This document shows positions 16,174 through 63,700 of a DNA stretch of 64,000 nt, in pieces. The stretch is taken from NCBI GenBank assembly GCA_029817715.1, contig JARUPY010000396.1, positions 186,001-250,000 of the forward strand, given 5' to 3'. The translations under genes were made by a program, and so were the position numbers. The notes beneath the pieces are model-generated. The model had not been told where the DNA came from. It saw only the letters and a program-made list of their open reading frames with translations, and ran no database searches. Numbering within the stretch: position 1 is the stretch's first letter; the number at the start of each line of letters is the position of its first letter. This DNA is from Melastoma dodecandrum (Eukaryota; Streptophyta; Magnoliopsida; Myrtales; Melastomataceae).

Positions 16174-16176
16174 CGA

Positions 16177-19140: not shown

Positions 19141-19160
19141 TCGACAACCCGTACAACCTC

Positions 19161-19172: not shown

Positions 19173-19174
19173 AA

Positions 19175-19436
19175 TGTTGGATCTCGACTTAGCGTTGAAC
19201 AAGGCGAACGCTAGTCTTTGAGCGGACTTCGAACTCCTAAGCTCGGAAGAAGAGGAAGTGAAACACTATCACTTGAAGCCAATACTCCACTACTTCAAAT
19301 ACATGGATTCTTGGATTCTTGGATGATTGAATTACAAATGAGGACCCTTCCCTATTTATACTAGTTGGCCTCCTAAACCTACGGCTAAGATTATTCCACA
19401 TGTACGGCTAGGATCGATCATCTAGAACCTTCTATA
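19175..19436 (-). repeat. 5' LTR (element orientation) of the minus-strand copia, truncated
   Basis: It matches 15761-16022 with about five differences and stops abruptly after CTTCTATA. The outer ~140 bp of the U3 side are missing, including the terminal TTAACA. Confidence 0.88.
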
Positions 19437-20383: not shown

Positions 20384-20644
20384 CTAGCCGGAAATCAGAA
20401 CCCCCATCTTTTGTAACGGAACATGGGTTGCTTTTTCGGTCGACGTGGCTTCGGCGAGTTCTTGTTCCCGATTGACGATCTGGGCAACAATGGCAGCATG
20501 ACCGACTTTGAGCTGTTCGAATTTAGAGGTTAGTTCAGTTGTTTGCCTTTCCAGTTGCTCCTTGATCTCGTAGTTACCGCGATGAAAAGACGAGATGGCA
20601 AGGGCTTTTGTAAAGACCACCCTTTTTGTAATTAAGGAAAACAA
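20384..20644 (-). pseudogene. Antisense PMD gene C-terminal coiled coil (old Tat element)
   Basis: The minus frame gives an amphipathic helix (KEQLERQTTELTSKFEQL, QIVNREQELAEATSTEK) ending at a stop near 20384. It matches in place and character the C-terminal coiled coil of the antisense gene in the young Tat element (51244-51420), where charged heptads also end the protein. Upstream, the frame is lost in inserted DNA and resumes at 22804. Confidence 0.6.
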
Positions 20645-42635: not shown

Positions 42636-42734
42636 TGTTGACATGGCAAATAATTTTGGGCCTGGGCTTAGAACAGAAACCCAGCAATCACTCAAGTCAC
42701 ACTCCGAGTCGGCCCAAGACACAGCCGTCTAGGC

Positions 42735-42850
42735 CGACTCACGGCGAAGTCGATTAGGTCGACCCATGACGAAGTCGACTAGGTCGACTTATGACGAAGT
42801 CGACTAGGTCGACTTATGAACGGAGTCGACTAGGTCGACTCACGACGAAG
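42735..42850. repeat. 25-bp tandem repeats centred on GTCGAC in the LTR
   Basis: Four units of CGACTTATGACGAAGTCGAC plus TAGGT lie at 42735, 42760, 42785 and 42810, followed by a partial fifth. Each carries the palindrome GTCGAC or a one-base variant. The same array is in the 3' LTR (54653-54768). Placement ~300-400 bp upstream of the TATA box would fit an upstream transcription element. Confidence 0.85.
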
Positions 42851-43153
42851 GAATATGGTAATCAAAGTCAACCAAGATGACTCAACAGTAGCTAAGTCTA
42901 CTTGTAGGGTCAAGTCGACGGAATTCTGGATAAGTCGACCAAGTCGGTCGTAGTCCGTACAGATCAGTCAAGTCGACAAGGTTGGAATAAATTTATCACG
43001 TTTGTTAAGGATCGTAACTGATCCTAATATCCAGGAACGTGATCCCATATATCAAGGAGGTTGTTGAGACACTCCCACGATATTAGGGATCACAATCTAT
43101 AACACGATCTGTAACACGATCTATCTGTTACGTGTTAAACACGTACAACTCCT

Positions 43154-43163
43154 CTATAAATAG
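43154..43163 (+). promoter_or_regulatory. LTR TATA box
   Basis: CTATAAATAG lies about 480 bp before the LTR end and should set the start of the genomic RNA near 43190. The 3' LTR copy is at 55072-55081. Confidence 0.75.
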
Positions 43164-43536
43164 AAGAGGAATTTTTCAAGACAAGCACGACCATACACAG
43201 CCAAAGCTCTGAAGTTTGTTCGTCAACCTTAGGAATTAGATACCTTGACCCGATTTATAGGTCAACTCCCCTTCCACCGACAGAGTGAGCTCGTAGGGCC
43301 TTTGCCGTCAACCCCCCGCCAGCGACACCACCGACGGAGTGAGCTCGTAGGGCCTTCGTCACAGCCTCCCGCCAGCGACCGCCACCGACGGAGCGAGCTT
43401 CCAAGGCCTTCGTCACAAGTTCTCCGCCGTCACAGGATTCCACATCGTTGTCACCACTTGCTCCCTTTTCGTTTCTTTTATGGCTGTAAGCCCCTTTTCT
43501 TAATTCGTCAAGATTGTAAGACTTGCATTCTATTTG

Positions 43537-43542
43537 AATAAA
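43537..43542 (+). terminator. LTR poly(A) signal AATAAA
   Basis: AATAAA lies 95 bp before the 5' LTR end. The functional copy for ending the genomic RNA is at 55455-55460 in the 3' LTR. Confidence 0.6.
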
Positions 43543-43637
43543 ATTGTGCATCTTCTTACTGGCGACAACAATCCAATTCCTGTGAGTCCTTTGCCAAATA
43601 TTTCCGACGTGATCCGTTCTATACGCGAACACGTTTT

Positions 43638-43656
43638 TGGCGACCACAGTGGGAGC
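43638..43656 (+). other. Primer-binding site of the Tat element
   Basis: TGGCGACCACAGTGGGAGC begins 7 bp after the LTR. It resembles the TGGCGACTCCACTGGGG site used by Tat/Ogre elements (reported as tRNA-Arg). The tRNA identity was not checked here. Confidence 0.7.
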
Positions 43657-43679
43657 AGAAGAAAAAATCTTAGTCTCAA

Positions 43680-45102
43680 ATGCCGAGAAATACTCGAAGT
43701 ACTATTGGCCGTGAGCCTCAGAACCCCTTAGATGGGGAAGACCAGGAACTTCCTCCGGGAATGGTCTTGGAAGCGCCGGCCCTAGGAGGCCAGGCAGCTG
43801 CAAACCAGTCCACTTTTGATTCACATGCCCCGTCCGAATTTATTTCGAGACTGGAGTTCTACAAGGAATTGGGGGATGTGCGTCAGGAGCTGACTGATAT
43901 GAAGGGTATTCTAATGGATGTCCAAACTCTAATAGGGCGTTTTTCTGGCCCGAGAGACGAGGAAAGAGTGAGACCTCGTATGAGAGAAGCCCCCTTTAGG
44001 GAGTCCACGTTCATGGCATACGCTTGTCGGACTGCTCAAGGGCCACGTAACGTGACTTTTGAGCAATCTGAGATAAGGACGAATGCTCTCTTTGAACTCG
44101 GGAATCTGGTTCCCCCTGGTCGACCCTCTTCTTCACGTAATCGACCAGCGAATACGTATTGGAATGAGGCAGAGGACTTCCAAGAGGAAACAGATCGGGG
44201 GGAGGATTTTATTCCGTCTCGTCGCCCTGGAAAAGAGCCAATGGTCGAGCAGTTGGAGATCCCTATGAGCCTGGACCCCAGAGTAGTAATCATCGTGAGG
44301 AGCCTTCATTTTATGTAAGGGATCCAACGAGCCAAACAATGGGAGAAAGGCCTCCGTTAGCCCGTTAAGGCCAACTCGACTCGCAGGGCAGGGGCCGATA
44401 GGCGGTGTACCCCCAGACTTAAGAGAGGCCATAACTCAGGTTATAGAGCAAGTCGTCCCCGGAATAGCTCGGCGAGATGATACCTGTTTATACAGGTCTC
44501 CTTATCCTGCGTACATTGATAGGGATTTCCCTTTACCTAGAGGTTATAGGGTGCCCGACTTCACTCGCTTCTCGGGCGAAGATGAAATGACTCCACTTGA
44601 GCATATTGCTCGCTTCACTCATCAACTTGGCGAGGCGGCCGGGAATGACTTCTGGAAACTAAAGCTCTTCCCGAACTCATTAATCGGGGATGCCTTTACC
44701 TGGTATGCAAGTTTGCCGTCGGGGTCAGTAGCCTCATGGACTCAGATGCAGTCCATGTTTGTTAAAACCTTTGCTCGACTCGATACCCCCATGTCGATGT
44801 TTGAGGTTATGCGCCTTAGGCAGGCTAATGGGGAACACCCGGGGCAGTTTTTAATAAAACTTAGAAAGGCCTTATTACGGTGTAGGCCTCCCATACCGGA
44901 GAAAGACAAGTTGCTCCTCGCATTAAATGCGTTGTCCATTCCTTTCCGGAAAAAGCTACAAGGGGAGCGCTTTGCCGATCTATATGATTTGGCAAGGAGA
45001 GCCACTGAGTACTATCAGCTCCTAACAGAAGAGGCCACGCTGACTCGAGCCTACCAAGTCGATACATATGAAGTCGACGTGGCCGAGTTTGTTAAGGGAT
45101 AG
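43680..45102 (+). pseudogene. Tat gag, N-terminal and capsid part
   Basis: The ATG at 43680 gives MPRNTRSTIGREPQNPLDGE and a helical stretch (YKELGDVRQELTDMKGIL). The frame shifts near 44280 and again near 44365, then stays open. It shows YPAYIDRDFPLPRGYRVPDF and the retrotransposon gag domain (FTRFSGEDEMTPLEHIARFT, WTQMQSMFVKTFAR, about 44550-45000). A TAG at 45100-45102 stops it, but the same frame continues at 45103. The shifts mean no full-length Gag is made from this copy unless they are assembly errors. Confidence 0.88.
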
Positions 45103-45120
45103 TCGACTATATGTGACCCC

Positions 45121-46509
45121 TTGACTAGGAAAAATTCTAAAGCTAAAGCCTCCCAGAAAAATGCCGAGGAAAGGAAATACTCCTTCGACACAGATAAAGT
45201 CGACGCCATTTTTGACAGGCTTTATCAAAAGAAAAGGATCAGGCTTAAGCCTGGTCATCGAGTCCCTCAGACAGAAAGGGAAAAAAGTAGGAATTATTGC
45301 AAGTGGCATGGTTTCTTCAACCATACTACCAAGGACTACCTGTCCTTTAGAAATATAATTCAGGATTTAATAGAGTCTAAAGAGCTCTGTTTTCCTGAAG
45401 TCGATGAAGTCGCCATGGTGGATGATAATCCATTTGGCGACGAAGTCGCCATTCATGCATTTGATATATTTGACACTGAGGTTAACCATGTAGAAGTCAT
45501 TAACGACTCTGCTATACCCTCGCAGGATTTGCAAGCAACTGGCGAGACCTTGGTGGCTAATGCCCTGATGAAGCGACTGGCTGAGCGTGGGGTTTTCATC
45601 CTGCCGAAGGGAAGGGACAAGTGGCTTTGCCACTGGCACCTGAACGACACTCACACGACGGACCAATGCCACACATTTAAGAAGTACCTGTTGGACAGTA
45701 AGACAGAAGACTGGTATGACCTGACCCCTTTCGAGGAAGCAGCAATGTCGTTGACTACCCCCCGAGGACCTTCTCACGTCCTCAAAAGTCCTCCTAGTGT
45801 GGATCGCCGACTGGCTTCGCGAGGAGGAAGAGGAGGTTCCCAGGGGCATAGGGGGAATGGAGAGGCAGCCGCCCGGGGTACGGAACGCCCGGCACGGCGA
45901 CTTGAGTTTATGGACTCGTCTGGCCAGAGAGTCGTCAAGCAGGGGTACACTAGGACTACCCCTGTCAAGGAGATAAGACCTGTGGAAGAGTATAAGGGAG
46001 TAGACCGACCCCAACAGGCTGCAAGTCGCGGGCCTCGATATGCGTCACAGACAGTCGACCCCCAGGAATTGCGGAGGGGACCTCCTATCGCCCAATTCTT
46101 GGACGAGAAGCTACTGTGCCAGAAATGCAAGCTGATCGCCCACAATCGGATACTTATTACCCAGCTCTGCACAGCATGCTGTGTCAATTATTTCTTGCGG
46201 CTGGTCGACTTGTCCGCAAAAATGGAGATGCTGGTAAAAGCGGTCCGCCCCGAGGGTACAGGTAATTCGAACCCTAGCAAACCTTCCTCGAAAAGACCAG
46301 AAAATACTCTAGTGCAGGTGGGATATGACCCAGTCGACGGCAGATTCGTGGAGGTAAGCCGACTCCCTTTTGGTTCTAGGAAACCAAAATTCGTCAAAGC
46401 CCTTAACCCTTTCGTCTCAATGGCAGAAGGTGGAAAGGAAGGTTGCGCCCCCCTTAAGGGCTCAAAAGAGAAAGGAAAGGCGTCTAAGTCACGCCCAAAA
46501 AAGACCTAG
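45121..46509 (+). pseudogene. Tat gag, C-terminal part
   Basis: 462 codons in the same frame as the capsid part beyond the in-frame TAG. Cys/His motifs typical of Tat Gag are visible: YCKWHGFFNHTTKDYLSFRN near residue 60 and WLCHWHLNDTHTTDQCH near residue 165. A Cys pair in LLCQKCKLIAHN occurs near residue 340. Gly/Arg-rich and Lys-rich linkers follow (RGGRGGSQGHRGNGEAAARG). The protease frame takes over by a shift near 46500. Confidence 0.85.
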
Positions 46510-47443
46510 GATGACCCCTGCGATGCCACCCTCGGAAGGGAACCAAGCTGCAGAGAAACAAGTCGCGGAGCCTAAACGGATCGAGTCTACTGATTACTCG
46601 GAAAACCCGGGCTCAAGCTTCGACTACACTCCTCTACGAGGAGACAGGCCCTGCGACTTCAACGCAGAACAAGGGCCCCTTGTGAGCTGTAACGCTCTCA
46701 CCTTCCCTGCGGAGTTCGCCTGCAACGACAAGTCGGAGGCGCCGAAAGGTAAAACCCTGGATTCTAAGGTCACTTCTTTTCCATCTGGCTTCCCTCTGCA
46801 CTGGCTGAGGAAACCATCGGATCGCATGAAACAGCACATGCACTCGCTATACATCGCAGCCACCTTTGACGGTGTTTTGGTGGGTCGAGTCTTAATAAAC
46901 AACGGTGCCACCGTCAATGTTCTCCCACTCACCAAGTTTAGACTACTTGGGTACAAGCCTAGCGAGTTGGTGCGAACCGACGTGGCTGTAAGCGGCTTTA
47001 ATGGGAGGAAGTCCGAATGCCTGGGGATATGCTCTGTGCATTTGGGCGTTGGAAGACACGAGCAGGAAACTGCTTTCTTCGTAATTGACATAGCCCCTTC
47101 GTTTAATGCGCTTTTGGGACGCGATTGGCTTCATAAAGCCGCCGCGATCCCATCGACTTTGCATAGGGAGTTGATTTTATGGCTTGACTCTGAAATAGAG
47201 ACTGTCAGGGCTGATGAATACTCCTGTTGTGACAAGGGCATTTTACATGCAGAAACATGCAAGATGATCAAGGACCTCACCCTGGATCAACGCTACAAGC
47301 TAGGAGACCCTACTGTCGGACCCCTAGGTGAACCCTCCGGGAAGTTCGACTTCATTGTGAGCTATGGCACCTCTCACCCCAAGCCTGATGAGGGATCAAT
47401 CGTGCCGACAGGATGGGGCCCGACTTCACGGACAAGGACATAG
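46370..47443 (+). pseudogene. Tat protease region, active-site Asp replaced by Asn
   Basis: The frame overlaps the Gag end by 140 bp. A Pro/Glu-rich linker is followed by a retropepsin-like domain (about 46840-47150: HMHSLYIAATFDGVLVGR, SGFNGRKSECLG, FFVIDIAPSFNALLGRDW). The catalytic motif, normally (V/I)DNG, reads LINNGATVN, so the Asp at 46898-46900 is Asn (AAC). The LLGRDW end is intact. The frame shifts at about 47420 and again at about 47597 before pol. Loss of the Asp predicts no Gag processing. Confidence 0.85.
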
Positions 47444-47476
47444 ATGAGGTCCTGCAGGAAGTAGTCCCGACCAAGG

Positions 47477-50400
47477 ATGGAGGCGAGACAGACAACAGTC
47501 CTAATGGCGACAAGGGGGAGGCGCCTAAGAGCCAGGAAAGTGCTACGACGGAGTTGGAGCCCGATAGACTCCTGCACGAAGGGGTGTATGGACAGTGACG
47601 AAGGAAGAGGCTATGCAGTCGCTGATATCCTCCAGCGACTTCAGGAGTATGTTAGGAAGTCTAGGAAATTAGGTTGCCAAATAAGCAATGTAAATGCTGA
47701 GGCTAGCTTATCTAAGTCCATTGATACCGACTTAGGCGGTGTCCAGGGTCGCGAGTCACTTATGATGCCATGTGACCCACTTGTAAGTATCAATTTAGGC
47801 GAGGAATCTAGCCCTCGGATCGTTTTCGTTAGTTCTTCAATGAATAAAGAACTTTTCAATTCTATTAAGGCTACTCTTGAAGAATTCAAGGACTGTTTCG
47901 CCTGGGACTATACTGAAATGCCTGGCCTAGATCGCCGACTTGTAGAACATAAGTTGCCAATCAAAGCAGGATTTAAACCAGTCCAACAGGCACCAAGGAG
48001 AATGACTCATGAAGTCACTCAGGCAGTATTCGAAGAAGTCAAGAAGCTATTTAAAGCCGGGTATATAAGAACATCGATGTACACCGAGTGGATATCCAGC
48101 ATAGTCCCTGTCATCAAAAAGAATGGCAAGATTAGAGTCTGCATCGACTTCAGAGACCTAAATCGTGCTACTCCAAAGGATGAATATCCCATGCCCATTG
48201 CAGACGACTTAGTCGATAAGACTGCAGGGCACCAAATTATGTCATTCATGGATGGTTTCTCAGGATATAACCAAATTTTCTTGGCTGAGGAAGATATCCA
48301 TAAAACCGCGTTCAGATGTCCGTTAGGCATTTTCGAATGGGTAGTCATGCCGTTTGGGCTTAAAAACGCTGGTGCAACCTACCAACGAGCTATGAACGCC
48401 ATTTTTGATGCTTCAATTGCCAAAATAGTCGAGGTATACATAGATGATATAGTGGTCAAATCAAAAGATGAGAGGTCGCATGTTAATGATCTTAGGAATG
48501 CTTTCATCCAAATGAGAAAGCATCAGCTCAAACTAAACCCTCTCAAATGTGCTTTTGGAGTAAGAGCAGGACATTTCCTAGGGTTCCTAGTTCATCAACG
48601 TGGCATAGAAGTCGACCAGAATAAAGTGAATGCCATTCAAAGATTGAACCCTCCGAGTAACAAGAAGCAGTTACAGGCTTTCTTAGGAAAGGTCAATTAT
48701 CTCAGGCGATTTATTGGTAACGTCACTAGACGGACAGAAGTCTTCTCGACTTTACTAAAGGCAAAGGGAAACTTTGTGTGGAGCGACGAACACCAAAAAG
48801 CATTTCAAGGCTTAAAGGAGTATTTAATGAAGCCGCCTGTGCTTGCCCCTCCTCGGATAGGAAAGCCCTATCTGCTTTACGTGGCAGCGACTGAATCAGT
48901 CATCGGAGCCATGTTAGCCCAAGAGGCGGAAGACAAAACTGAGAGAGCGGTCTACTATTTGTCAAGACAACTAACCGCTACAGAAAAACGCTATACAATT
49001 AAGGAGAAGTTATGCCTGTCAGTCTTTTATACTGTAACTAAGCTAAGACATTATATTGGATCCCAAGAGGTTCATGTCATTACCAAGTCTCCAGTCATAA
49101 AGTACTTTTTCGAAAGTCCCCTACTGACTGGGAGAATTAGTAAATGGAGTTTAGTGCTATCCGCGTATGATCTACGATTCAAATCCCAACAGTCGGTGAA
49201 AGGACAGGCTCTAGTCGACTTCTTGGTGAGTCACGATCCATCTGTATCAATCGACCAAGAAGAATCCCTTGAGGACATCTGGCAGGGTTGGTTTGATGGA
49301 TCTTCAGCGAAATCCGGCGTAGGTATAGGCCTTCGTATACTTTCGCCACTAGGGAAAGATGTTCGTCTTGCGTATCGCTTGACGACAACTCACACCAACA
49401 ATGCGACTGAATATGAAGCTTTGATCACGCTCCTGAAGGAACTATTAACCTTGGGAGCCAAGAAAGCCACAGTGATGGGGGACTCTCAACTGGTGATTAA
49501 CCAGATGAATGGTACTTCTATATGCCAAGAGAAACTCACACCCTATCATCAAGTCGCCCGCAAGCTAGTCGAGCGATTTGAAGCGATCGCTTTCCTCTTT
49601 GTAGGTCGAGGGGAAAATACCATCGCTAACGACTTAGCCCAAAAGGCTTCAGGATACAAGGCCAAAAGAGGAAGCGATTGTATCCCAGAAATAGTTTCCC
49701 ACCTAGTTCCCCAAAGCGACGCGTTCGTTCTGGACTTAATGACAAGCGATAAGGATTGGAGGAAGCCAATCACCGACTTCCTTTCTGACCCAACACAAAA
49801 GGCGAGCCAAAGAATTAAGACTCAGGCTTTGTCGTACACCCTTATAGATGGGGTACTTTACAGAAAGACCAAGGAAGGAGTCCTATTAAGGTGTGTCGAC
49901 TTAGACGAAGCGACCCCAATTATGTTAGAGACTCATCAGGGGTTATGCGGATCTCACCAATCTGGCACCAAAATGTCTTGGACTATCCAAAGACGGGGTT
50001 TTTACCAGCCATCAATGCTAAAGAACTGCATAGAAATGGCTAGGGGATGCCAAGAGTGCCAAAAACATGGTCCGGTGACAAAGGCCCCAGCGTCCGACTT
50101 GGTCTCAGTCATCAAGCCTTGGCCATTTAGGTCTTGGGCTTTAGATATAATCGGGGAAATCCATCCGCACTCAAGTAAAGGTGACGCCTATGTTCTAGTC
50201 GCCACCGATTATTTTACTAAATGGGTCGAGGCTCAGGTTTATAAGAAGATCGATCATAAAGAAGTGATCGATTTCCTCAAATCATCCATCATCTATAGAT
50301 TTGGAATTCCCCAGAATATTGTAATGGACAATGGCACCGCTTTCAATAATGAGAAAATGCGAGAATTCGCTACGGAGTTTGGTTTCTCAATCACCAACTC

Positions 50401-51049
50401 AACACCTTATTATCCTCAGGCGAATGGACAGGCTGAAGCTACCAATAAACTCATAAAGAACAATATTCAGAAAATGGTTGGTGCAAATCCAAGAGGATGG
50501 CACAAACTATTACAAGACACTTTGTGGGCTTTAAGGGTTACTAAGAGAGAAAGCACAGGGGAAACCCCTTTTTCACTAGTATATGGGCAAGACACCGTCC
50601 TACCTATTGAGGTTCGATACAAGTCGCTCAGGGTGACTCACCCTGATTTACAAGACGAGGCAATGTACCTCGCTTTGGAAGAATTAGAGAAGAAGCGACT
50701 TGATGTAATAGACCGACTCGAGGTGCATAAACAAAGGATTGCTAGGCATTATAACAAAAGGGTTGTCCATAAGCACTTTAAAGTGGGCGACTTGGTTTGG
50801 AAGATGGTGCTACCCCTTAAATCGAAAGACCAAGTTTTGGGTAAATGGTCCCCTAATTGGGAAGGTCCATATGAGGTATGTGAGACATACTCATCTAATA
50901 GTTATCGGCTTATGACGAGAAGTGGGGTCAGACATCCATTAAAGGTTAATGGTAAATATCTCAAACCCTATCGCGCGACTATCTGGGAAGCTCACCATAA
51001 AATCCTAAAACAAAGGACTCCATTAATTTGGGAAGCGCTTAATTCCTAA
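47477..51049 (+). CDS. Tat pol: RT, RNase H, archaeal-type RNase H, integrase
   Basis: The open frame has 1190 codons; true pol similarity begins near codon 38. RT spans residues ~170-400 with KKNGKIRVCIDFRDLNRAT and the catalytic YIDD at ~320. The gypsy RNase H follows (~430-560, YVAATESVIGAMLAQ, YTIKEKLCLSVFY). A second, archaeal-type RNase H lies at ~600-735, with acidic residues in WFDGSS, NATEYEAL, GDSQLVINQM and ENTIANDLAQ. Integrase has HHCC (THQGLCGSHQ, CQECQKHG), Asp in ALDIIGEI (~888), Asp in VMDNGTAF (~950) and Glu in GQAEATNKL (~986), then a KVGDLVWKM tail. All catalytic residues are present. It is the only long intact ORF in the window. Confidence 0.95.
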   Translation: MEARQTTVLMATRGRRLRARKVLRRSWSPIDSCTKGCMDSDEGRGYAVADILQRLQEYVRKSRKLGCQISNVNAEASLSKSIDTDLGGVQGRESLMMPCDPLVSINLGEESSPRIVFVSSSMNKELFNSIKATLEEFKDCFAWDYTEMPGLDRRLVEHKLPIKAGFKPVQQAPRRMTHEVTQAVFEEVKKLFKAGYIRTSMYTEWISSIVPVIKKNGKIRVCIDFRDLNRATPKDEYPMPIADDLVDKTAGHQIMSFMDGFSGYNQIFLAEEDIHKTAFRCPLGIFEWVVMPFGLKNAGATYQRAMNAIFDASIAKIVEVYIDDIVVKSKDERSHVNDLRNAFIQMRKHQLKLNPLKCAFGVRAGHFLGFLVHQRGIEVDQNKVNAIQRLNPPSNKKQLQAFLGKVNYLRRFIGNVTRRTEVFSTLLKAKGNFVWSDEHQKAFQGLKEYLMKPPVLAPPRIGKPYLLYVAATESVIGAMLAQEAEDKTERAVYYLSRQLTATEKRYTIKEKLCLSVFYTVTKLRHYIGSQEVHVITKSPVIKYFFESPLLTGRISKWSLVLSAYDLRFKSQQSVKGQALVDFLVSHDPSVSIDQEESLEDIWQGWFDGSSAKSGVGIGLRILSPLGKDVRLAYRLTTTHTNNATEYEALITLLKELLTLGAKKATVMGDSQLVINQMNGTSICQEKLTPYHQVARKLVERFEAIAFLFVGRGENTIANDLAQKASGYKAKRGSDCIPEIVSHLVPQSDAFVLDLMTSDKDWRKPITDFLSDPTQKASQRIKTQALSYTLIDGVLYRKTKEGVLLRCVDLDEATPIMLETHQGLCGSHQSGTKMSWTIQRRGFYQPSMLKNCIEMARGCQECQKHGPVTKAPASDLVSVIKPWPFRSWALDIIGEIHPHSSKGDAYVLVATDYFTKWVEAQVYKKIDHKEVIDFLKSSIIYRFGIPQNIVMDNGTAFNNEKMREFATEFGFSITNSTPYYPQANGQAEATNKLIKNNIQKMVGANPRGWHKLLQDTLWALRVTKRESTGETPFSLVYGQDTVLPIEVRYKSLRVTHPDLQDEAMYLALEELEKKRLDVIDRLEVHKQRIARHYNKRVVHKHFKVGDLVWKMVLPLKSKDQVLGKWSPNWEGPYEVCETYSSNSYRLMTRSGVRHPLKVNGKYLKPYRATIWEAHHKILKQRTPLIWEALNS

Positions 51050-51136
51050 GAAATCGCGCTAGGCTTCAGTAACGCTGTCTGAAAGAATGAATTGTGCGTA
51101 GTGGGCAGAAATTCATTTGAGACACAATGCACTTGA

Positions 51137-51142
51137 TTTATT
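51137..51142 (-). terminator. Poly(A) signal of the antisense gene
   Basis: The minus strand has AATAAA in CTCAATAAATCAAG, about 102 bp past the antisense stop codon. It lies just beyond the pol stop, so the two transcription units converge here with their 3' ends nearly touching. Confidence 0.55.
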
Positions 51143-51243
51143 GAGTAAAACAAAAACAATGGAATTGCATTGTTCTTTGATTACAAATCTAATTTCCATA
51201 ACCCGCCAACTTCTTTGAAATCGAGGACAAGGGATTCACGAGC

Positions 51244-54200
51244 TCATCGCTTCGCGTTCACCTTGTTTCGCTGGGCATAAAGGTCGACGACCTTTTCTCT
51301 ATCCTTCTCAGCATTGGCCTCCAGCTCCTCGATTTCTTGAGTATTGATCGACGCGAGCTGCCGAGTCAAGTCATTCTTGAGGTTCGTATAGAACTCTATT
51401 AGTCTCTCTGCCTCGGTCAGCTTCTCTTGCACGTCGACCAAACGTTGGCAGGCGTCCTGCGCAGCTTTAGAGGCCTGCCCTCGAGCTTGATTAATCGACT
51501 GAATCTTCGAGTCAGTCGATTCCAAGGTGAGCAGGTCGGCGTCGTAATCCCTCCAGCGGGTCCAGTACGTCGACCTGAAGCTCTTGCAGGCCCCCAATAT
51601 TTCGTCCGTGACCCGAGGGGATGCCTCGATTCTCTTCAACAGCTTCTGCATCCTCCTAAATTCGTTGACGCTTAAGGGGTCGATGAGCAGAAGTTGGCAA
51701 AGTTCTTCGATATCCTCGTGAAGCTTCTCCCACGGGTCTTTGGTTGACCTAGAAGTCACTGCAGCAGGATCCTGAAGAATAAGAGGCAAAATGTTGTTAA
51801 ACAATACCCTAGAAAGGCCAACGACCTCGTGCGATCGAGTACTTACCTCTGGAGGCAATATATCCCTAGAGCTCTCGTCCGAAGAAGAAGGGGGAGTAGG
51901 AATCTTTTGTCGGCCAGCAGACACCTTCACCCTCTTCAGACGAGCCTATAAGGAAGGATACAATTACCCCAGTTAAAATCGCAATGATAATACTATGTTC
52001 TGTTTAAAACAAGAACACATACCATCGCCGGTGTAGGAATTTGGACTGGAGGAGAAGGAACAGGATCGCGACATCCAGAGCAGCCTGTTCTTCTTGAACC
52101 AAGGCCTCAGGGATGTGTCGTTCCTGAAACAGAGTATGATGCAGAACAGAAAGTTCATATATGAACTAAAGTAATGATACACCAGCTTAGAATTAAACTC
52201 ACCTTGGCGACTGAAGCCTTTGAACTTTTGTCCAAGGCATGGGAGATAAGCTGGTCGTCATCCTCATCTGAAGCCTCTCCCTAGACAATATATTATGGGT
52301 TAGATATGAAAACTCAAAACAAAAAAAAAACTGGAGTCATCAGAGTCATACCTCTGCGGTCGGCCTTTGTGGAGCGTCGACTGCAGCTGAAGATGCTGGC
52401 ACCGCAGCTGGTGCCTTGGTAGATGAGGTCGCCACTGAAGCAGCTGGCGACCTGGATGCGGTCGCCGCTGCAGCAGCTGGCGACCTGGATGGGGTCGCCG
52501 CTGCAATAACTGGCGACCTAGGAGAGGAAGTCGCCGCTGGAGTCAACGCCTTCACCAGTCTCTTCCTCTGAGACAGAGGCACCTCTTCAAGATCTTCTCC
52601 CTCTTTCTCGGCCGCCTTGCGCTTTGGTGCGCTTTTAGATCGAGCCTTAGAGGGATCACCTTTGGCTACTTCCCTGGGGCTCGCAACTTTAGCCTTCCCC
52701 TTGCTGGTCGACTTGAGTTTAGAAGGAGCAGGGGCAAGGGGGGCTTTAGGCTTGGGTTTTCCAGAGCCCCGAGGAAGCAATGATCCTGAAAGAGGAGAAA
52801 AACTTATGATTAGTATTAAGAACCCAATACTCTTAAAACAAAGCTAAGTCCTTACCTCTTGCTTTAATATGCGCGTCATCGGTGTAAAAATCAGGTTCCT
52901 CGGAGACCTCCAAGAAATGCATCAAGGCCCGCAGCTCTTCGTATGTAGTCGACCACAGCACGGTGAAGAACTGTGTGGCGAAACAGGAAGAAGTATCAGA
53001 TGGGAATTCCATCTGGGAGAGCTGCGTGATTGAGCAAGTCGAGGATCTTCGAGTCGATCGACTTGCACACAATCTTCTTCATCATGTCCCCATACAAGCC
53101 GCCGGCAGGGTCAGCGAGTGGAACTGCTACACTTTGGATAAACCCAAACTGCCTTGCACACAGTTGAGGGTTCTAGACTTCAAAGGTCAGGCCGCCATCG
53201 AAAATAACTGGCAGATCTCTACTGGTCAATACTCTATTCCAGAAGCCACGAGCAGTTTGAGGATTGACTTCCTGAGCAAGTGTCTTGTCGCCTGGAAAGG
53301 GTGCCCAGTTTCGTCGATCTACCCTGCCGAAGTCGACTATGTGCTTTAGATGGCCAGTGATCGATGTCATAAGCCATTGATCCTTACGCTGGCAGCACTG
53401 ATCTAGTATGCTCTCCCCATAATAGAAGGCTTCAGGGGGCGAAGAAGGGACCTTGAACCCAGTCAATCCCGGCATCCACATGGCTGACCAAAGATGAACT
53501 AGCCAGAGCAACCCTCCTGCTGGATGTTTTGGAAATGGCTTGATTTGAGACGTTGCTCTGTCCAGATCGTGATAAAGAAGACCCAAAATGAAGGGACCCC
53601 AGGAGATTTCTTCATCGGTCTCCCTCAGAAAATTGGCCACCGCATAAGAAGTGTGGCTAACTTTCTTCCCAGGGAAGCAATAGACGAATTTGCTCAACCA
53701 GGTGCTGAGGAACTCGACCTCTTCCTGGGCACCAAAACTTTCAGTCGACAACCTCTCATCTGACCTCTTGCCTGCTGAAGCCATCTTCAGATGCCTATTC
53801 ACCACCTCCATGTACTGAAGGGCGCCCTTGGGATTAATATCGCCTGCCTGGGAGTACTATCGAACAGGGCGGCCATTGATTTTTCACTTGGTCAAAATCT
53901 TCACATCTGCCAATGTAACTGACATAGGGCCTTCTGGGAAATAGAAGCAGTTCACGACAGAATTCCAGAAAGGCAGCATGGCCGAACAAACCCTGGGATC
54001 ACAGTTCTTATTTGCTACTGACATCCTAAAGAATCTCAAAATCCTCTGGTTCCTAAATCTCTCTGTAAAGTGCTCCTCCCATATCTCAAGCCAGTCTACC
54101 ATCTCAGACTTAGATGCAGATGGAAAACACCGGAAAGATCCCTGACCTTCCCAGTTGAGGGGATCGATGAAGTCGGGATGACAAATCGGGATGGGCTTCT

Positions 54201-54357
54201 CAGTGATGAGATAGTTGAGCGGCACCGTCTTCGAGAAAAGACGCTCTGGCAAGATAGGTCCAAGAGTGACGCCCGACCCCTGATCCTCTGCGACCGGAAT
54301 GGGTCCGGTTGGCCCCGCGCGCAGTTTATGGAACTCAAAAGACTTAAAAGTTGACAT
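51244..54357 (-). pseudogene. Antisense multi-exon plant mobile domain (PMD) gene
   Basis: The ATG at 54357 gives MSTFKSFEFHKLR. A PMD (aminotransferase-like plant mobile domain) follows with WNSVVNCFYFPEGPMSVTLA, then EEVEFLSTWLSKFVYCFPGK and PAGGLLWLVHLWSAMW, to ~52860. After that come a Lys/Ala/Ser/Pro-rich linker (52785-52352), short acidic exons, and a helical C-terminus with coiled coil (TNLKNDLTRQLASINTQE) ending at 51244. Introns: 52855-52786, 52351-52281, 52202-52124, 52022-51946, 51846-51772. Breaks: TGA at 53884, a TAG near 53850, TAG at 53173, a frame change near 53010 and a 1-bp shift in exon 52123-52023. PMD proteins such as MAIN/MAIL1 act in the nucleus, and retrotransposon-borne relatives are known as antisense ORFs in Tat elements. 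Confidence 0.8.
51772..52855 (-). other. Five short GT-AG introns in the antisense gene
   Basis: Donor / acceptor pairs on the minus strand: AG^GTAAGGAC / TTTCAG^GATC (70 bp), GAG^GTATGACT / GTCTAG^GGAG (71 bp), AAG^GTGAGTTT / TTTCAG^GAAC (79 bp), ATG^GTATGTGT / TTATAG^GCTC (77 bp), GAG^GTAAGTAC / TTCAG^GATC (75 bp). Removing the first two joins the flanking exons in frame across stops present in the introns. Sizes of 70-80 bp are normal for plant introns. The last one is divisible by three and lacks a stop, so it could be retained. Confidence 0.8.
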
Positions 54358-54490
54358 CTTTTTGAGGATCGAAGGAGTTTTGGCAAGGGAGACAAAGGGT
54401 TTTCTGGGAAACGAGGGTTTCTGGTTTCTTGGAGAAGATGGAGAAGTGTTGAGCAAGGAAGAAAAGTGCGGGAAAAGGACGATGACTCTC

Positions 54491-54500
54491 CTTTATATAG
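54491..54500 (-). promoter_or_regulatory. TATA box of the antisense gene
   Basis: The minus strand reads CCCTATATAAAGGAG, 135 bp upstream of the ATG and about 55 bp inside the 3' LTR. A start near 54465 would leave a ~110-nt pyrimidine-rich leader. This places an internal promoter directed against the retrotransposon's own transcript. Confidence 0.6.
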
Positions 54501-54538
54501 GGTATGATTTTTGCTGAGTCAGCATAGCCAACCCTGCA

Positions 54539-54550
54539 TAAAAGGGGGGC
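54539..54550 (+). other. Polypurine tract of the Tat element
   Basis: TAAAAGGGGGGC followed by TTA precedes the 3' LTR start TGTTGACATGG at 54554. Confidence 0.8.
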
Positions 54551-54553
54551 TTA

Positions 54554-55549
54554 TGTTGACATGGCAAATAATTTTGGGCCTGGGCTTAGAACAGAAACCC
54601 AGCAATCACTCAAGTCACACTCCGAGTCGGCCCAAGACATAGCCGTCTAGGCCGACTCACGACGAAGTCGATTAGGTCGACCCATGACGAAGTCGACTAG
54701 GTCGACTTATGACGAAGTCGACTAAGTCGATTTATGAACGGAGTCCACTAGGTCGACTCACGACGAAGGAATATGGTAATCAAAGTCAACCAAGATGACT
54801 CAACAGTAGCTAAGTCTACTAGTAGGGTCAAGTCGACGGAATTCTGGATAAGTCGACCAATTAGGTCGTAGTCCGTACAGATCAGTCAAGTCGACAAGGT
54901 TGGAATAAATTTATCACGTTTGTTAAGGATCGTAACTGATCATAATATCCAGGAACGTGATCCCATATATCAAGGAGGTTGTTGAGACACTCTCACGATA
55001 TTAGGGATCACGATCTATAACACGATCTGCAACACGATCTATCTGTTACGTGTTAAACACGTACAAGTCCTCTATAAATAGCAGAGGAATTTTTCAAGAC
55101 AAGCACGACCATACACAGCCAAAGCTCTGAAGTTTGTTCGTCAACCTTAGGAATTAGATACCTTGACCCGGTTTATAGGTCAACTCCCCTTCCACCGACA
55201 GAGTGAGCTCGTAGGGCCTTTGCCGTCAACCCCCCGCCAGCGACACCACCGACGAAGTGAGCTTGTAGGGCCTTCGTCACAGCCTCCCGCCAGCGACCGC
55301 CACCGACGGAGCGAGCTTCCAAGGCCTTCGTCACAAGTTCTCCGCCATCACAGGATTCCACATTGTTGTCACCACTTGCTCCCTTTTCGTTTCTTTTATG
55401 GCTGTAAGCCCCTGTTCTTAATTCGTCAAGATTGTAAGACTTGCATTCTATTTGAATAAAATTGTGCATCTTCTTACTGGCGACCACAATCCAATTCCTG
55501 TGAGTCCTTTGCCAAATATTTCCGACGTGATCCGTTCTATACGCGAACA
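54554..55549 (+). repeat. 3' LTR of the Tat element
   Basis: 996 bp, the same length as the 5' LTR, with about 21 substitutions counted by eye and no indels. CCCCC follows at 55550-55554. Confidence 0.95.
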
Positions 55550-55868: not shown

Positions 55869-56000
55869 GGGAGGGGAGAGCCTTTTTTATTTTTTTATTT
55901 ATTAATGTCCACGTATGAAAACAAAATGACGTGTCAAATTATTTAATATAATAAAAGGAATAGTCACAGACACGTCACCGAATCGTAACGTCCGTTACAA

Positions 56001-56345
56001 TGTACAAACGTGTACTAGTACAACGTTAGTACATTGTACTAAATTGAACAGTAAAAGTTTTGTACCGATTAGTACAGTTGTAATTACTACAATTGTACTA
56101 ATTTTAATTAGTACAATATACAAATCGTGTACTAGTACATCGTTCGTACATTGTACTAATTTTTCATTAGTACAATTGTAGTAATTATAACTGTACTAAT
56201 CGGTACAAAACTAAATTATTACAATGTATAAGCGTGCACTTGTACAATGTTTGTACATTGTACTAAGTAAAAATAATATAATTATAGTAATTACAAACTG
56301 TACTAATTTCTTGTACAATGTACTAAAAAAAGGTCTAAATTAGTA
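56001..56345. repeat. GTAC-rich nested palindromes
   Basis: The ~50-bp arm AGTTTTGTACCGATTAGTAC... (from about 56056) is inverted at about 56160-56208. Smaller palindromes (TGTACTAGTACA, GTACAATGTAC) fill the loop and the flanks. It could form a cruciform or a hairpin RNA. No TIR or duplication was defined. Confidence 0.65.
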
Positions 56346-56880: not shown

Positions 56881-56890
56881 TGCTTTTTAC

Positions 56891-58196
56891 GGAAGCGGCT
56901 AACGGTACGTGTACGTAACGCTAACGTAGTTTACTAATTACTACTAACTTTTTTAGTAAATTTTACTAAAAGTTAACCATTACTAACAAAGTCAACGTAA
57001 AATTAGTAAAAAAAACAGTAAAATTTACTAAAAACTGGTCTGTTTTTAGTAAAGTTAACGCAAAATTAGTAAAAAAGTATGAAAATTTTAGTACTTTTGT
57101 ACTATTCAAAGCAGTTCAAGTTTACTAATTTTGCGCTGACTTTACTAAAACTTTTCCGTTAGTAAAGTCAACTCAAAATTAGTAAAAAAAGTAGTAAAAT
57201 TTGCTACTTTTTTTTTACTAATTTTACGTTGACTTTACAAAGAAAATCACATTTTTAGTAAAGTCAACGAAAATTTAGTATAAAAAGTAGTAAAATTTAC
57301 TACCTTTTTAACTAAATTTGCGTTGACTTTACTAAATTTCTCTTTTTTAGTAACGTCAACGCAAATTGTTTACTAATTGTGAACCGAATTAGGTTCGTAA
57401 ATAGGTTCCGGTGTCACTGTTTAGTAACGGGGGTAAACCGGTAATTTCACATCAAAAATATGTTCGGAGTTAGGTTCGGAAACACTGTTCTAATTAGCAA
57501 ATTCATTAGTAAACACCTTCATTTTTAGTAACAGTTTACTAACTTTTTTCGTAAAAACATGTCAAAATTAGTAAACATTAACTAAAACCGTAAGACTTTA
57601 CTGACAGTTTCACTAACTCGAAGAGTTTTTACAAGAAAACACACCAAAATTAGTAAATAATTACTAAATATCGCCTAAATTCGTACAGTAAAAAAGTAGT
57701 AAATTTTACTACTTTTTTACTAAACCTGTGTTGACGTTACTAAACAAGAGAAATTTAGTAAAGGCAACGCAAATTTGGTAAAAAAAGTAGTAAATTTTAG
57801 TACTTTTTTTACTAAATTTTCGTTGACTTTACTAAAATTGTGCTTTTCTTAGTAAAGTCAACGTAAAATTAGTAAAAAAAAAGGAAAATTTTACTACTTT
57901 TTTTACTAATTTTGAGTTGACTTTACTAATGGAAAAGTTTTAGCAAAGTCAGCGCAAAATTACTAAACTTGAACTGCTTTGAACAGTACAAAAGTAGTAA
58001 AATTTCCATAATTTTTTACTAATTTTGCGTGGACTTTACTAAAAAAGGCCAGTTTATAGTAAATTTTACTACTTTTTTTACTAATTTTGCGTTGACTTTG
58101 TTAGTAATGGCCAACTTTTAGTAAAATTTACTAAAAAAGTTAGTAGTAATTAGTAAACTACGTAAGTGTTACGTGCACGTACCGTTAGTCGCTTCC
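56891..58196. mobile_element. Foldback (long-TIR) element, Mutator-like by its 9-bp duplication
   Basis: The left arm starts GGAAGCGGCTAACGGTACG, and the right arm ends with its near complement GTACCGTTAGTCGCTTCC. Arms pair over about 475 bp each (56891-~57368 and ~57722-58196) around a ~350-bp spacer. GCTTTTTAC (56882-56890) and GCTTTGTAC (58197-58205) flank it as a 9-bp duplication with one mismatch, the size made by Mutator-like elements. Each arm is itself built from short palindromes around TTTAGTAAAGTCAACGCAAA and AAAAAGTAGTAAAATTTACT. No coding capacity, so it is non-autonomous. Confidence 0.85.
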
Positions 58197-58205
58197 GCTT
58201 TGTAC

Positions 58206-59713: not shown

Positions 59714-59895
59714 TTATTTTCAGAATTATTTTACATTCAGCGAAGCAATTTTTGTAGAGCAAGTCCTTTTAATTTTAATTTTCGTATTCATGCCATTTCA
59801 GGTGTATGCATCGATTGCGCAACAAAGAAACATTCGAGTTTGATCCGGAAATCGATCGAACTTTTCGTGTCTGATTAAGAGAGCAGCGACGAACG

Positions 59896-61140
59896 ATGGC
59901 GGACAATAATATGAACAATGGAAACAACAATCAAATCGCAAATCTACCTCAGCGGAGGACAATGCGAGATTTTGCTCAACCAACGCCATACGAGCTGACA
60001 AGATTTCTTCGGCCAGCTGTCCAGGTGAATAACTTCGAGATCAAGCCTGCCATACTCAACATGATTAAAAAATCAAGCTTTGGCGGGCAATCGAACGAGG
60101 ATCCACATTGGCATCTAACCCGTTTTGAGGATTTATGTGATACTTTCAGGTACAACGGAGTGTCTCCCGAAGCTGTAAAATAAGGATGTTCCCTTTCTCT
60201 TTAAGGGACAAGGCAATGGGATGAGCAGTCAAGGCAATTTTTAACCAAATATTACCCACCAAGCAGGACTATGAGGTTGAGGAACGAGATCACTTCTTTC
60301 CGTCCACAAAACACCGAGTCTTTGTATGAGGCGTGGGAAAGATTCAAGGAATTACAAAGATTATGCCCCCATCATGAGATTCCGAAGAGGATGTTAGTTC
60401 AATGTTTCTATGATGGATTGGCGGAACCACTTCAATCGAAGATCGATTCAGCCGCATGAGGGACATTGATGAACAAGACTCCGGAGGAAGCACTTGAATT
60501 ATTTGAGTGATTGCCAACAACGATCAAAGAAGGACGTCACTCGAGGGGTAGCTGGGATGCATTCGGTTGACCAATTGTCATCCTTGAGTGCCTAGATGGA
60601 AACATTAACGAGGGAAGTAGCCGCACTCCGAACTTCTAATCAATCTGCTGATAAACCTCATGCACTAAATTCTGAATTTTAGGTGATGGATCAATATGCA
60701 GAGCCCAATGAAAATTATGTAGGGGGAGTAATTCTCGAAACAACCTCTACTCCAACTTGTACAATCCCAGATGGAGGAATCATCCAAACTTTTTATGGAG
60801 TAATAATCAAGGAGCACCATTAACAGCACCACCACCGAGATTAAATCAACCTCAAGGATTCGTAGTGCCATCTCCTGCAAACATTGGAGAAAACAAGTCA
60901 AACTTGGATGATCTGTTAAAGTAGCTCATTACAAATCAAGAGGATGTGTGGAAGCAACAAGATGTGATATTGAAGGATCATGCTACCTCCACTAAGCAGT
61001 TAGAGGTTCAAATTGGCCAAATCGCAAGTTCGTTGAACAACAGACCACATGGAGCATTACCAAGCGACGCCGAGTAAATCCAAAGAGAGAACAATTCAAT
61101 GTTTGCGCAATAGACGTCACTTCGAGGATGTCTTTGAAAG
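59896..61140 (+). pseudogene. Athila gag remnant
   Basis: The ATG at 59896 gives MADNNMNNGNNNQIANLPQR. The capsid domain follows (FEIKPAILNMIKKSSFGGQS, PHWHLTRFEDLCDTFRYNGV), stopped by TAA at 60181. A shifted frame continues (SLYEAWERFKELQRLCPHHE, MLVQCFYDGLAEPLQSKID, TGA at 60458). Further pieces include SRNNLYSNLYNPRWRNHPNF and LEVQIGQIASSLNNRPHGAL near 61000-61060. Order and motifs match Athila Gag. At least four stops or shifts break it. Confidence 0.82.
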
Positions 61141-61346
61141 GATGGAACAGAAGAAAGAGCAGGCTTGAGAACAACGTCGAAACAACAAGGTAAGTGAGGT
61201 ATGTAAGAAGCAGAGTGAGCATCACTCAAACAATCTTATTGAATTACCAAAGATAAGTGCTAATTCATCTCCAATTATTCCTCCTATACCTTTTCCGCAA
61301 TGTTTAAAAAGGAAAAATGATGAGCAACATTTTCAAAAATTTCTAG

Positions 61347-62331
61347 ATGTGTTTAAACAGTTGCAGATTAACATTTTCTTTTGTGGAAGCGTCGGAACAG
61401 ATGCCAAGTTATGTGAAATTCATGAAAGATATTTTATCAAAGAAGAGACGGATTGGTGAGCACGAGACCATCTCTTTGACTGAGGAGTGCAATGCAATAT
61501 TGCAAAATAAGCTACCTCCGAAGTTCACTATCCCGTGTAACATATGAACACAATTTTTTGGACATGTTCTTTGTGATTTAGGAGCAAGCATCAACCTTAT
61601 GCCATACTCGGTTTACGAGACGCTCAATATTGGAGAGGTAAAGCAAACTTCTATGGCATTGCAACTTGTCGATAGATCATATACATATCCTAGGGGTGTC
61701 ATAGAAGTTGTGCTAGTTAAGGTTGATAAATTCATTTTTCCTGCTGACTTTGTGATACTGGATTATGAGGAGGATCGTGAGATCCCCATTGTTCATGATA
61801 GACCATTTCTTGCTATAGAGAGAACTCTTATTGACGTGTAGAAATGTGAGTTAACAATGAGGGGTTCACAATCAGGAGGAAAAATTTAACATTTATAATA
61901 CCATGAATATGCCTGATGATCCTGACGTGTGTAATTTTGTTGATGACATTACATATGAGGATTTTCTGAATTTGTATTCAAGTATCTCACTTGAAGAAGC
62001 ATCGTCATTCGACATGACAAAAGATGAAGATAAGAGTGCAGATGAAGTATCATACATGCGACACATGCCAACGATTGAACCATTAAAGCGGTCAATTTCC
62101 TCAGCTAAACCATCAATCAAAGAACCATCCAAATTGGACATGAAGCCATTACCAGAACATTTGAGGTACTCGTTTCTTGGTACGTCAAATACCCTTCCTG
62201 TAATTATTTCTGCATCATTGACTAACGAACATGAAGAGATGCTACTTCGAGTCTTATGCAAGCACAAGAGAGACATTGGGTGGACAATCGCTGTCATTCG
62301 AGGAATCAACCCTTCGATATGCATGCACTAG
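61347..62331 (+). pseudogene. Athila protease and start of pol
   Basis: A pre-protease stretch (MPSYVKFMKDILSKKRRIGE, 61399-61460) is conserved in Athila. The protease shows GHVLCDLGASINLMPYSVYE at 61562-61620 with the catalytic Asp in DLGAS intact, and ends EIPIVHDRPFLA (61780-61812). A TAG at 61839 separates it from 61903-62331, which contains the segment before RT (KLDMKPLPEHLRYSFLG, LTNEHEEMLLRVLCKHKRDI). The His in VHDRPF replaces the usual Leu/Gly-type residue. Confidence 0.78.
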
Positions 62332-62339
62332 AAGAGAAT

Positions 62340-63700
62340 CACAAGGTATCAATCGAGCAACAAATAAGATTAAATCCGAACATGAAATAGGTAGTGAGAA
62401 AAGAAATCATTACTGGGCTTGATGTAGGAATTATTTACCCAATGTCTGATAGCTCGTGGGTAAGCCCGATCCAATGTGTACTAAAGAAATGTGGAATAAC
62501 GGTGATCGAGAATGGAAAGAACAAACTCATACCGACACAGATAGTCACTGGATGGCGAGTTTGCATGGACCACCGCAAGCTCAACTCCACCACATGCAGA
62601 GACCATTTCCCTCTTCCTTTCATTGATCAGATGCTCGACAGGCTAGTAGGTAAGGATTTTATTGCTTTCTTGATAGATATTCTGGTACAATCAGATAGCT
62701 ATTTCACCGGAGGATCAGGTGAAGACCACTTTCACATGTCCATACGGTACGTTTTCGTTTTGACGTATGCCTTTTGGTTTGTGCAATGCCCCAGCCACAT
62801 TTCAAAGATGTATGATGGCATTCTCAGACATGATTAAGCATTGCATCGAGGTATTTATGGATGACTTTTGGGTCTTTGTACTTTCTTTTGATAATTACCT
62901 TGAGAATTTATGAGTTGTGCTTAATCGTTGCAAGGAGACTAACCTTGTTTTAAATTGGGAGAAGTGTAATTTTATGGTTAAAGAAGGTATTGTGCTAGGT
63001 CATAGGATCTCAATAAATGGAATTGAGGTGGATAGGGCCAAGGTGGAAACAATTGAAAAACTATCACCTTCAACATCAGTTAAAGGAGTTCGAAGTTTCC
63101 ATGGACACGCAGGATTCTATAGGTGTTTTATCAAGGATTTTTCAAAAATCACAAAACGTTGTGCAATCTCTTGGAGAAAGACGCAGCCTTCATCTTCAAC
63201 GGTAAGTGTTTGGAAGCGTTTCTAGAGTTAAGAAAGTGGTTAGTCTCTGCCCCGATAATTTTTGCTCCGAATTGGTCTATTCCTTTTGAACTATTGTGCG
63301 ATGCCAATGATTTTGTTGTTGGAGCATTTTAGGACAGAGGAGAAATAAAGTTTTTCATGCAATCTACTATAAAACATTGGATGTTGCACATGTGAATTAC
63401 ACCACGACAGAGATAGAAATGTTAGTAGTGTTTTATGCGTTTGATAAGTTTAGATCATAGTTAATTGGGTCGAAAGTGATCGTTCATACTGATCATTCTA
63501 CAATTAAATACTTGATATTCCAAGAAGGATGCAAAACCACGGTTAATAATAATGGATCCTCTTGTTTCAAGAATACGACTTGGAAATTGTTGATAGGAAA
63601 GGAGCGTACAATCAAGTCATAGATCGTCTTTCAAGGTTAGAAAGCGGAAGCACCTCCCTTGATTCAACTCATATATATGATTCATTTCCCGATGAACAAT
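62340..63700 (+). pseudogene. Athila reverse transcriptase and RNase H remnant
   Basis: RT pieces: MSDSSWVSPIQCVLKKCGIT (62440-62500), VTGWRVCMDHRKLNSTTCRD (62545-62605), FPLPFIDQMLDRLVGKDF, then frame changes. The catalytic box reads [10 protein letters not shown] at about 62852-62880 (usually FMDDFSVF). The thumb follows (GHRISINGIEVDRAKVETIE, 63000-63060). RNase H begins FELLCDANDFVVGAF (63287-63330) and continues in broken frames, ending RKGAYNQVIDRLSRLE (about 63597-63645). Many stops. Confidence 0.78.

Follow-up and report, generated by a model that had tools for sequence, protein, structure and literature searches.

A decayed copy of a probable antisense, intron-bearing Plant Mobile Domain gene carried by a Tat-lineage retrotransposon family of Melastoma dodecandrum

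The window examined here is a 64,000-nucleotide stretch of the Melastoma dodecandrum genome (contig JARUPY010000396.1, positions 186,001 to 250,000), in which a Ty3/gypsy retrotransposon of the Tat lineage occupies 42636..55549 on the plus strand, as judged from its long terminal repeats (LTRs) and domain order. The minus strand carries, in the part of this element that separates integrase and 3' LTR, a gene for a protein with a Plant Mobile Domain (PMD) that is divided by five GT-AG introns of 70-79 bp. An initial annotation had reported this antisense PMD frame, its introns, a TATA box and an AATAAA hexamer, and all were re-derived at the same places. Comparison with related copies indicates that the locus is very probably a decayed copy of an antisense accessory gene carried by this Tat-lineage family.

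All features of the gene are read on the minus strand. The TATA box, TATATAAA, is at 54499-54492, outside the LTR, and CCCTATATAA was present in the 5 copies of the window family and the 10 copies of a sister subfamily that were inspected at this place. Just above the TATA box is a palindrome-like sequence, TGCTGACTCAGCA (54524-54508), which is altered in the sister subfamily and which we take to resemble bZIP sites. Coding exon 1 (52856..54357) opens with an ATG at 54357-54355 and contains the PMD. The match to Pfam PF10536 proposed in the initial annotation was obtained from one exon-1 piece (44.8 bits against a curated cut-off of 34.9), the other exon-1 piece scoring 18.4 bits, below the cut-off. 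A match to Transposase_28 (PF04195), proposed alongside it, was not found at E<=1 in the exon pieces or in P0010 (MLD38_027211), a 918-aa protein of Melastoma candidum.

Intron 1 (52855-52786; 70 bp) is followed by exon 2 (52352..52785), which encodes a basic, Ala/Ser/Pro-rich region with repeated units. The repeats at 52422-52539 measure about 33 bp each, and a 33-nt deletion is the commonest length change in exon 2 (10/29 copies). Intron 2 (52351-52281; 71 bp, 64-72 in family copies) precedes exon 3 (52203..52280), which is 78 bp long with phase 0 on both sides, and intron 3 (52202-52124; 79 bp) precedes exon 4 (52023..52123), which is 101 bp long here and 147 in 27 of the 30 aligned family copies. 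After intron 4 (52022-51946; 77 bp, 66 in 9 sister copies) comes exon 5 (51847..51945; 99 bp), with a basic cluster at its start; the basic clusters of exons 2 and 5 resemble nuclear localization signals (NLSs) by eye. Intron 5 (51846-51772; 75 bp, 73-84 in family copies) is open in frame 0 and, lacking an in-frame stop, is the least supported of the five by frame alone. Exon 6 (51181..51771), whose tail is predicted to be helical, ends at the family stop (51183-51181), and the AATAAA hexamer, which resembles a poly(A) signal in sequence, follows at 51142-51137.

The window copy itself is a pseudogene, not a working gene. Exon 1 contains in-frame stops at 53886-53884, 53859-53857 and 53175-53173, as well as a 5-nt deletion at 53027/53026 relative to most copies; a fourth exon-1 stop falls behind this deletion, outside the family frame, and was not counted. 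Compared with most copies, exon 4 lacks 46 nt at 52061/52060, and a stop at 51246-51244 is private to the window copy, the family stop being used in 29 of 30 copies. The claim of the initial annotation that a full eukaryotic gene is carried as cargo thus stands for the family, which carries an intron-bearing antisense gene, and falls for this copy, which is broken by stops and deletions.

A DNA search of the species' own genome (372.9 Mb, 607 contigs) gave 44 matches, and 30 loci were aligned; one more family copy, L039, did not enter the analysis. All 30 aligned copies adjoin an LTR, one with a second LTR-like end further out, and their outer flanks are distinct except for one identical pair, which gives 29 distinct sites. 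One copy of that pair was excluded from the indel count and from the spectrum-corrected ratios of nonsynonymous to synonymous changes (N/S) given below, and was retained elsewhere. The copies are young, with a median exon distance of 0.037. The ATG was present in 30/30 and AATAAA in 28/30. Donors were GT in 150/150 cases and acceptors AG in 148/150, so that intron pairs were complete in 148/150. The spliced family frame comprises 951 codons, in which 43 internal stops were found over 37 codon columns, and 5 of these columns were common to two or three copies.

The frame depends strongly on splicing. Over the 30 copies the median number of stops was 1 when spliced and 25 when unspliced; retaining a single intron gave medians of 25, 20, 15, 11 and 1 for introns 1 to 5, respectively, and shifting an acceptor by 1-2 nt raised the median from 1 to 8.5-24. 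The introns could in principle be GT-AG stretches that arose by chance, either in non-coding DNA or in several short unrelated open reading frames (ORFs), given that GT-AG pairs spaced 60-100 nt apart abound (the last part of one copy has 243) and that intron 5 is open in frame. However, in 20,000 random draws of five non-overlapping GT-AG introns of 60-100 nt from one copy, the number of stops never fell to 1 or below (minimum 2, median 18). The intron positions are moreover conserved in the sister subfamily, and three of them recur in an independent gene model. The chance explanation is refuted for introns 1-4 and is countered for intron 5 by the conserved GT-AG (usually 75 nt in the family and 77 nt in the sister subfamily) and by P0010; overall we give it next to no credence.

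The sister subfamily was recognised in a search with another M. candidum protein, P0004. Among the best 81 of 2564 candidates, 39 matched at 91-99% identity, constituting the sister subfamily, and 42 at 77-79%. Exon 1 was stop-free in 33/39 sister and 24/42 family matches, fractions that are biased upward because only the best-scored candidates are included. Ten of the 39 sister matches were fetched and compared. In nine, the alignment to the window family starts upstream of the TATA box and takes in the integrase end, with a DNA identity of 77-78%; the tenth, which is rearranged starting at intron 4, was excluded from the region identities. All five introns were found at the same positions, with GT-AG ends, in 9 of the 10, and splice-site positions are therefore conserved between copies, across the 30 of the family and into the sister subfamily, as the initial annotation required of a real gene. 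The usual lengths of exons 1 to 5 in family and sister copies (1507/1504, 401 or 434/410, 78/78, 147/165 and 99/99) differ by multiples of three, and those of the introns are 70/78, 64-72/64, 79/75, 77/66 and 75/77. Introns are on average 73% identical between the subfamilies, and by our own arithmetic from this identity the chance of 20 unchanged splice bases is about 0.74^20 = 0.002. Within each subfamily the copies have a common stop. AATAAA was not seen at the family place in the 10 sister copies.

Selection on the protein was estimated between the subfamilies from 3 family and 5 sister copies, one of the family copies having a changed splice acceptor. The ratio dN/dS was 0.16-0.19 in 15/15 pairs (bootstrap limits 0.13-0.23, 100 bootstraps per pair), below 1 as had been predicted, values that may be too low in absolute terms because synonymous sites diverge more than introns. 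By part, dN/dS was 0.08-0.09 for exon 1, which holds the PMD, 0.35-0.54 for exon 2 and 0.26-0.35 for exons 3-6. The integrase end, used as a yardstick, gave 0.04-0.06 in 8 usable pairs of 15, the other 7 being unusable owing to stops. Within the family, distinct indels of 3n versus non-3n length numbered 19/14 in exons and 5/17 in introns (Fisher P 0.014), and uncorrected pairwise pN/pS was 0.38 for exon 1 and 0.54 for exons 2-6. With the cautions set out below, conserved splice positions together with purifying selection on the exons indicate an intron-bearing protein-coding gene.

The closest relatives at the protein level agree in part with this structure. In a database of 5.8 billion sequences the nine closest proteins were all from M. 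candidum, the best full-length match being 92% identical, and M. candidum proteins were the sole matches in the protein database searches. Viral contigs were scanned three times for relatives, with 3, 4 and 37 pattern matches and no confirmed relative. Exon joins of P0010 coincide with the residues of introns 1, 4 and 5, its end with the family stop, and its PF10536 score is 92.2 bits (cut-off 34.9). Seven other M. candidum proteins (P0001-P0006 and P0009) likewise have exons 1 and 2 joined at the intron 1 residue. The M. candidum annotation drew together RNA-seq mapping, homology and AUGUSTUS (PMC9911893), and because of this mixture its models are not proof of transcripts. The tail of P0010 is predicted to be helical with moderate confidence within an otherwise poor structural model, and a search of solved structures gave two weak matches (E 0.032 and 0.56).

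Several observations weigh against a maintained protein-coding gene. Among the M. candidum models, P0010 joins exon 2 directly to exon 4, without exon 3, in a comparison made at the protein level, and P0001-P0006 and P0009 end in exon 2 or intron 2; exon 3, which is found in both subfamilies, is possibly a cassette exon, or its absence from P0010 a model error. The AlphaFold model of P0010, built from 8 sequences, is poor (mean pLDDT 35.5). Within the window family, splice conservation is not above chance: 84 intron singletons were counted over 368 columns in the 30 copies, and about 5 changes would be expected in the 600 splice bases, of which 2 were seen, so this conservation proves little. 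Indels present in at least 2 copies (3n/non-3n: exons 2/1, introns 1/5) do not differ significantly (P 0.23), and single copies do carry non-3n exon changes, departing from the usual exon lengths.

Within the family, raw N:S counts for the antisense gene were 409:217 among private and 91:63 among widely shared variants, with no significant difference (Fisher P 0.16; P 0.004 once 2-copy variants count as shared), whereas the integrase end does differ (544:191 private, 20:25 shared, P 5e-5; P 0.11 with 2-copy variants counted as shared). After correction for the mutation spectrum (one-sided P values; shared meaning 3 or more copies), N/S of exon 1 was only mildly low, at 0.60 shared (P 0.012) and 0.69 private (P 0.005), and that of exons 2-6 was not significant, at 0.94 shared (P 0.35) and 0.85 private (P 0.085); the integrase end gave 0.39 shared (P 0.001) and 0.91 private (P 0.09). 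In the comparison between subfamilies, dS of 0.5-1.6 exceeds the divergence of the introns (p ~0.26), and exon 1 set against introns instead of dS gives a ratio of about 0.4. The dS of exon 1 (~1.3-1.6) is far above the divergence of introns or the dS of exons 3-6 (0.49-0.61). Gene conversion, the mutation spectrum or constraint on introns could lie behind this pattern.

Frames are also broken widely. Besides the window copy, this holds for the family at large (27/30 frames, one solely by a stop 5 codons early), leaving 3/30 open to the end when spliced, one of them with a changed acceptor; among sister copies 5/10 are open. Copies with an uninterrupted spliced frame, which the initial annotation had called for, therefore exist in both groups. 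The preponderance of broken family frames would fit a different role, in which the antisense transcript itself is functional, pairing with the sense genomic RNA to feed small interfering RNA (siRNA) silencing or copy-number control, with the frame a leftover; antisense transcripts have been proposed as siRNA sources in such elements (PMC7264820). However, the low dN/dS between subfamilies and the 3n differences in exon length point to a selected protein, as do the open sister frames, and we regard a purely RNA-based function as improbable.

The introns have evidently been carried through retrotransposition. They are retained in all 30 aligned copies. The 34 near-full-length matches span 3323-3482 bp against a query of 3364 bases that includes 372 bp of introns, too long in every case for a copy without introns. 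With a 184-base query from which introns 2 and 3 had been spliced out, 114 partial matches were obtained at 40 scored loci of 189 candidates, and none reached more than 3 bases across a junction. The expectation that antisense cargo survives retrotransposition with its introns was thus borne out, with no spliced copy among these scored loci. The introns are copied at each jump because the gene is antisense to the element: the genomic RNA that is reverse-transcribed would represent the opposite strand, on which the introns would be unrecognisable and never removed, and each new copy would for that reason receive the full gene.

A host PMD gene with introns might have been captured recently by a single element, by ordinary transduction, and be carried as passenger DNA. 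Other PMD loci do occur in the genome, including L001, a candidate host gene with a 759-aa open frame, and PMD genes linked to Mutator-like elements (MULEs) in which the PMD match is split. Yet the gene, its orientation, its place and its five introns are common to two subfamilies diverged by 22-23% in DNA, with the protein selected since, and in the MULE-linked matches the break falls in the PMD itself, at profile position ~238, whereas the PMD of the window gene is contained in exon 1. An origin from the MULE-linked PMDs was rejected on this last ground, and recent capture as a whole appears very unlikely, although no search aimed specifically at a host gene with these five intron positions was made.

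The other PMD loci were of several kinds. None of the 30 aligned loci was among the 139 PF10536 matches listed, which were the best-scored candidates. Two split matches from this list were examined. At L040, MULE (PF10551) and PMD matches lie in neighbouring ORFs in the same orientation; L041 has similar ORFs, and its one transposase piece tested gave no Pfam match. In both, the PMD match is split by about 80-90 nt near profile position 238. Seven further loci (L002-L008), with ~96-99% DNA identity over long stretches, have a 437-aa open frame with 1-2 TGA codons inside the match, and gave no tblastn match to the window-type protein P0010.

The element that carries the gene has a 5' LTR at 42636-43631 and a 3' LTR at 54554-55549, with TG..CA ends and 97.9% identity over 997 bp. 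CCCCC flanks it on both sides, within a C-rich repeat, and is likely a 5-bp target-site duplication. Directly 3' of the 5' LTR is a stretch like a primer-binding site, presumably of tRNA-Arg type. Frames for gag (PF03732) and a protease-like domain (PF13650, below cut-off) occupy 44299..47443 (+) and are broken by stops or a frame change in the window copy. They are followed at 47465..51049 (+) by a polyprotein frame for reverse transcriptase (RT), RNase H (RH), an additional RNase H (aRH) and integrase (INT), with RVT_1, RT_RNaseH (residues 466-568), RVT_3 (636-728) and rve (887-984) in that order. The second RNase H, RVT_3 besides RT_RNaseH, places the element in Tat, and its position between RH and INT is the mark of the angiosperm Tat elements Ogre and Retand (PMC6317226). 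Inverted-repeat, hairpin-like sequences at 55996-56307 and 56890-58197, just beyond the element, have the appearance of miniature inverted-repeat transposable elements.

Elsewhere in the window, a second, degraded Tat-like pol lies at 12605-15437 (+), its best RT pieces showing 52-67% identity. Downstream of it are a copia-like element (15761-19436) with 262-bp direct repeats (98%) and, beyond that, a coiled-coil-looking ORF at 20384-20653 (-), possibly the tail of a further antisense gene. When the region downstream of this older pol (12.6-15.4 kb) was examined for a second antisense PMD gene, 6 read-through pieces gave no Pfam match. Two further Ty3/gypsy-type fragments, at 3310-5894 and 59875-63225, contain matched pol pieces; the gag at the start of the latter presumably belongs to an Athila-like element.

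Tat elements are well known to carry extra ORFs in antisense (PMC7264820, PMC11963269), and the window gene resembles these in place and orientation. It lies between pol and the 3' LTR, opposite to gag-pol and in many family copies, as does the aORF-3R (eORF-3'R) of Tat/Retand/Ogre elements (Grande gene23, RIRE2, Retand), which has the same position and orientation within a long region between pol and the 3' LTR. For Grande gene23 an own promoter, an antisense transcript and a nuclear product are reported (PMC7264820, PMC11963269), whereas here a conserved TATA box marks a putative promoter. Retand antisense ORFs bear Transposase_28, unlike the window gene with its PMD. Among the non-canonical domains of plant Gypsy elements, the PMD is the commonest (PMC9289625); PMDs were found in 57% of Ogre elements (PMC6317226), where, as in the window element, they accompany an aRH between RH and INT. 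The PMD-A clades of Ikeda et al. (2017) likewise comprise PMDs carried by Gypsy elements across angiosperms (PMC5418596). The window protein, however, differs from PMD-A and from the host MAIN/MAIL1 proteins (PMD-C) in its long basic middle and predicted helical tail, and is likened to them by domain. The MULE-PMD transposons of the same genome also place a PMD on a mobile element, but this is a DNA transposon with the PMD oriented as the transposase and its match split.

Introns in this setting are another matter. Ogre elements have a functional intron between gag-pro and RT, but it is in the sense orientation and spliced in a subset of transcripts (PMC6317226), whereas the introns here are antisense. 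Surveys of extra ORFs sought uninterrupted frames of at least 250 codons (PMC6317226) or 600 bp (PMC11963269), the word intron is absent from two main texts by Vicient (PMC11963269, PMC7264820), and the earlier of these, from 2020, calls for a search for antisense and spliced transcripts (PMC7264820). No description of a multi-intron antisense gene was found in the literature searched, in which Steinbauerova 2011 and Gomez-Orte 2013 were covered via citations only, in agreement with the initial annotation. The kind of gene is thus already known, as antisense ORFs and as PMDs in Tat elements, and its conserved five-intron form is the new part.

HBZ of human T-cell leukemia virus type 1 (HTLV-1) is spliced and has few introns. 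It is an antisense gene of a retroelement that encodes a nuclear regulator (PMC11963269), as proposed here without any sequence relation being claimed, and its promoter lies in the 3' LTR (PMC7264820), unlike the TATA box of the window gene.

Taken together, the comparisons demonstrate, at the level of sequence, a TATA-bearing start outside the LTR, a PMD exon, five conserved introns, common stops and purifying selection. From these features a course of expression can be proposed. An RNA polymerase II promoter of the gene's own, in the conserved TATA region beside the 3' LTR, would make an antisense pre-mRNA, which the host spliceosome would process to yield a protein of about 940-950 residues. 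This protein would have an N-terminal PMD, a basic middle with NLS-like clusters and a helical tail, and would act in the nucleus. The most likely hypothesis for its role is that of a nuclear accessory protein helping the element to persist. Host MAIN and MAIL1 act in the silencing of transposable elements, and a counter-silencing use of PMDs by such elements has been suggested (PMC5418596, PMC8616336). That the window-type protein interferes with the host PMD (MAIN/MAIL1-PP7L) silencing pathway is a hypothesis we hold only tentatively. We are equally doubtful of a broader proposal, in which antisense placement would keep multi-intron genes indefinitely, a spliced nuclear PMD protein would counteract MAIN/MAIL1-PP7L, and such genes would be widespread in Tat elements and missed by surveys of uninterrupted ORFs.

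Retroelements replicate via RNA and are expected to lose introns; here, orientation explains their retention. All five have persisted since two subfamilies diverged and, in one of these, at 29 distinct insertion sites. Antisense extra ORFs thereby become gene models whose start, splice sites and stop can be put to the test, and ORF-based surveys may undercount the antisense extra genes of these elements. If it is true that the PMD protein opposes host PMD silencing, the PMDs of Gypsy elements would be linked directly to the MAIN/MAIL1 pathway.

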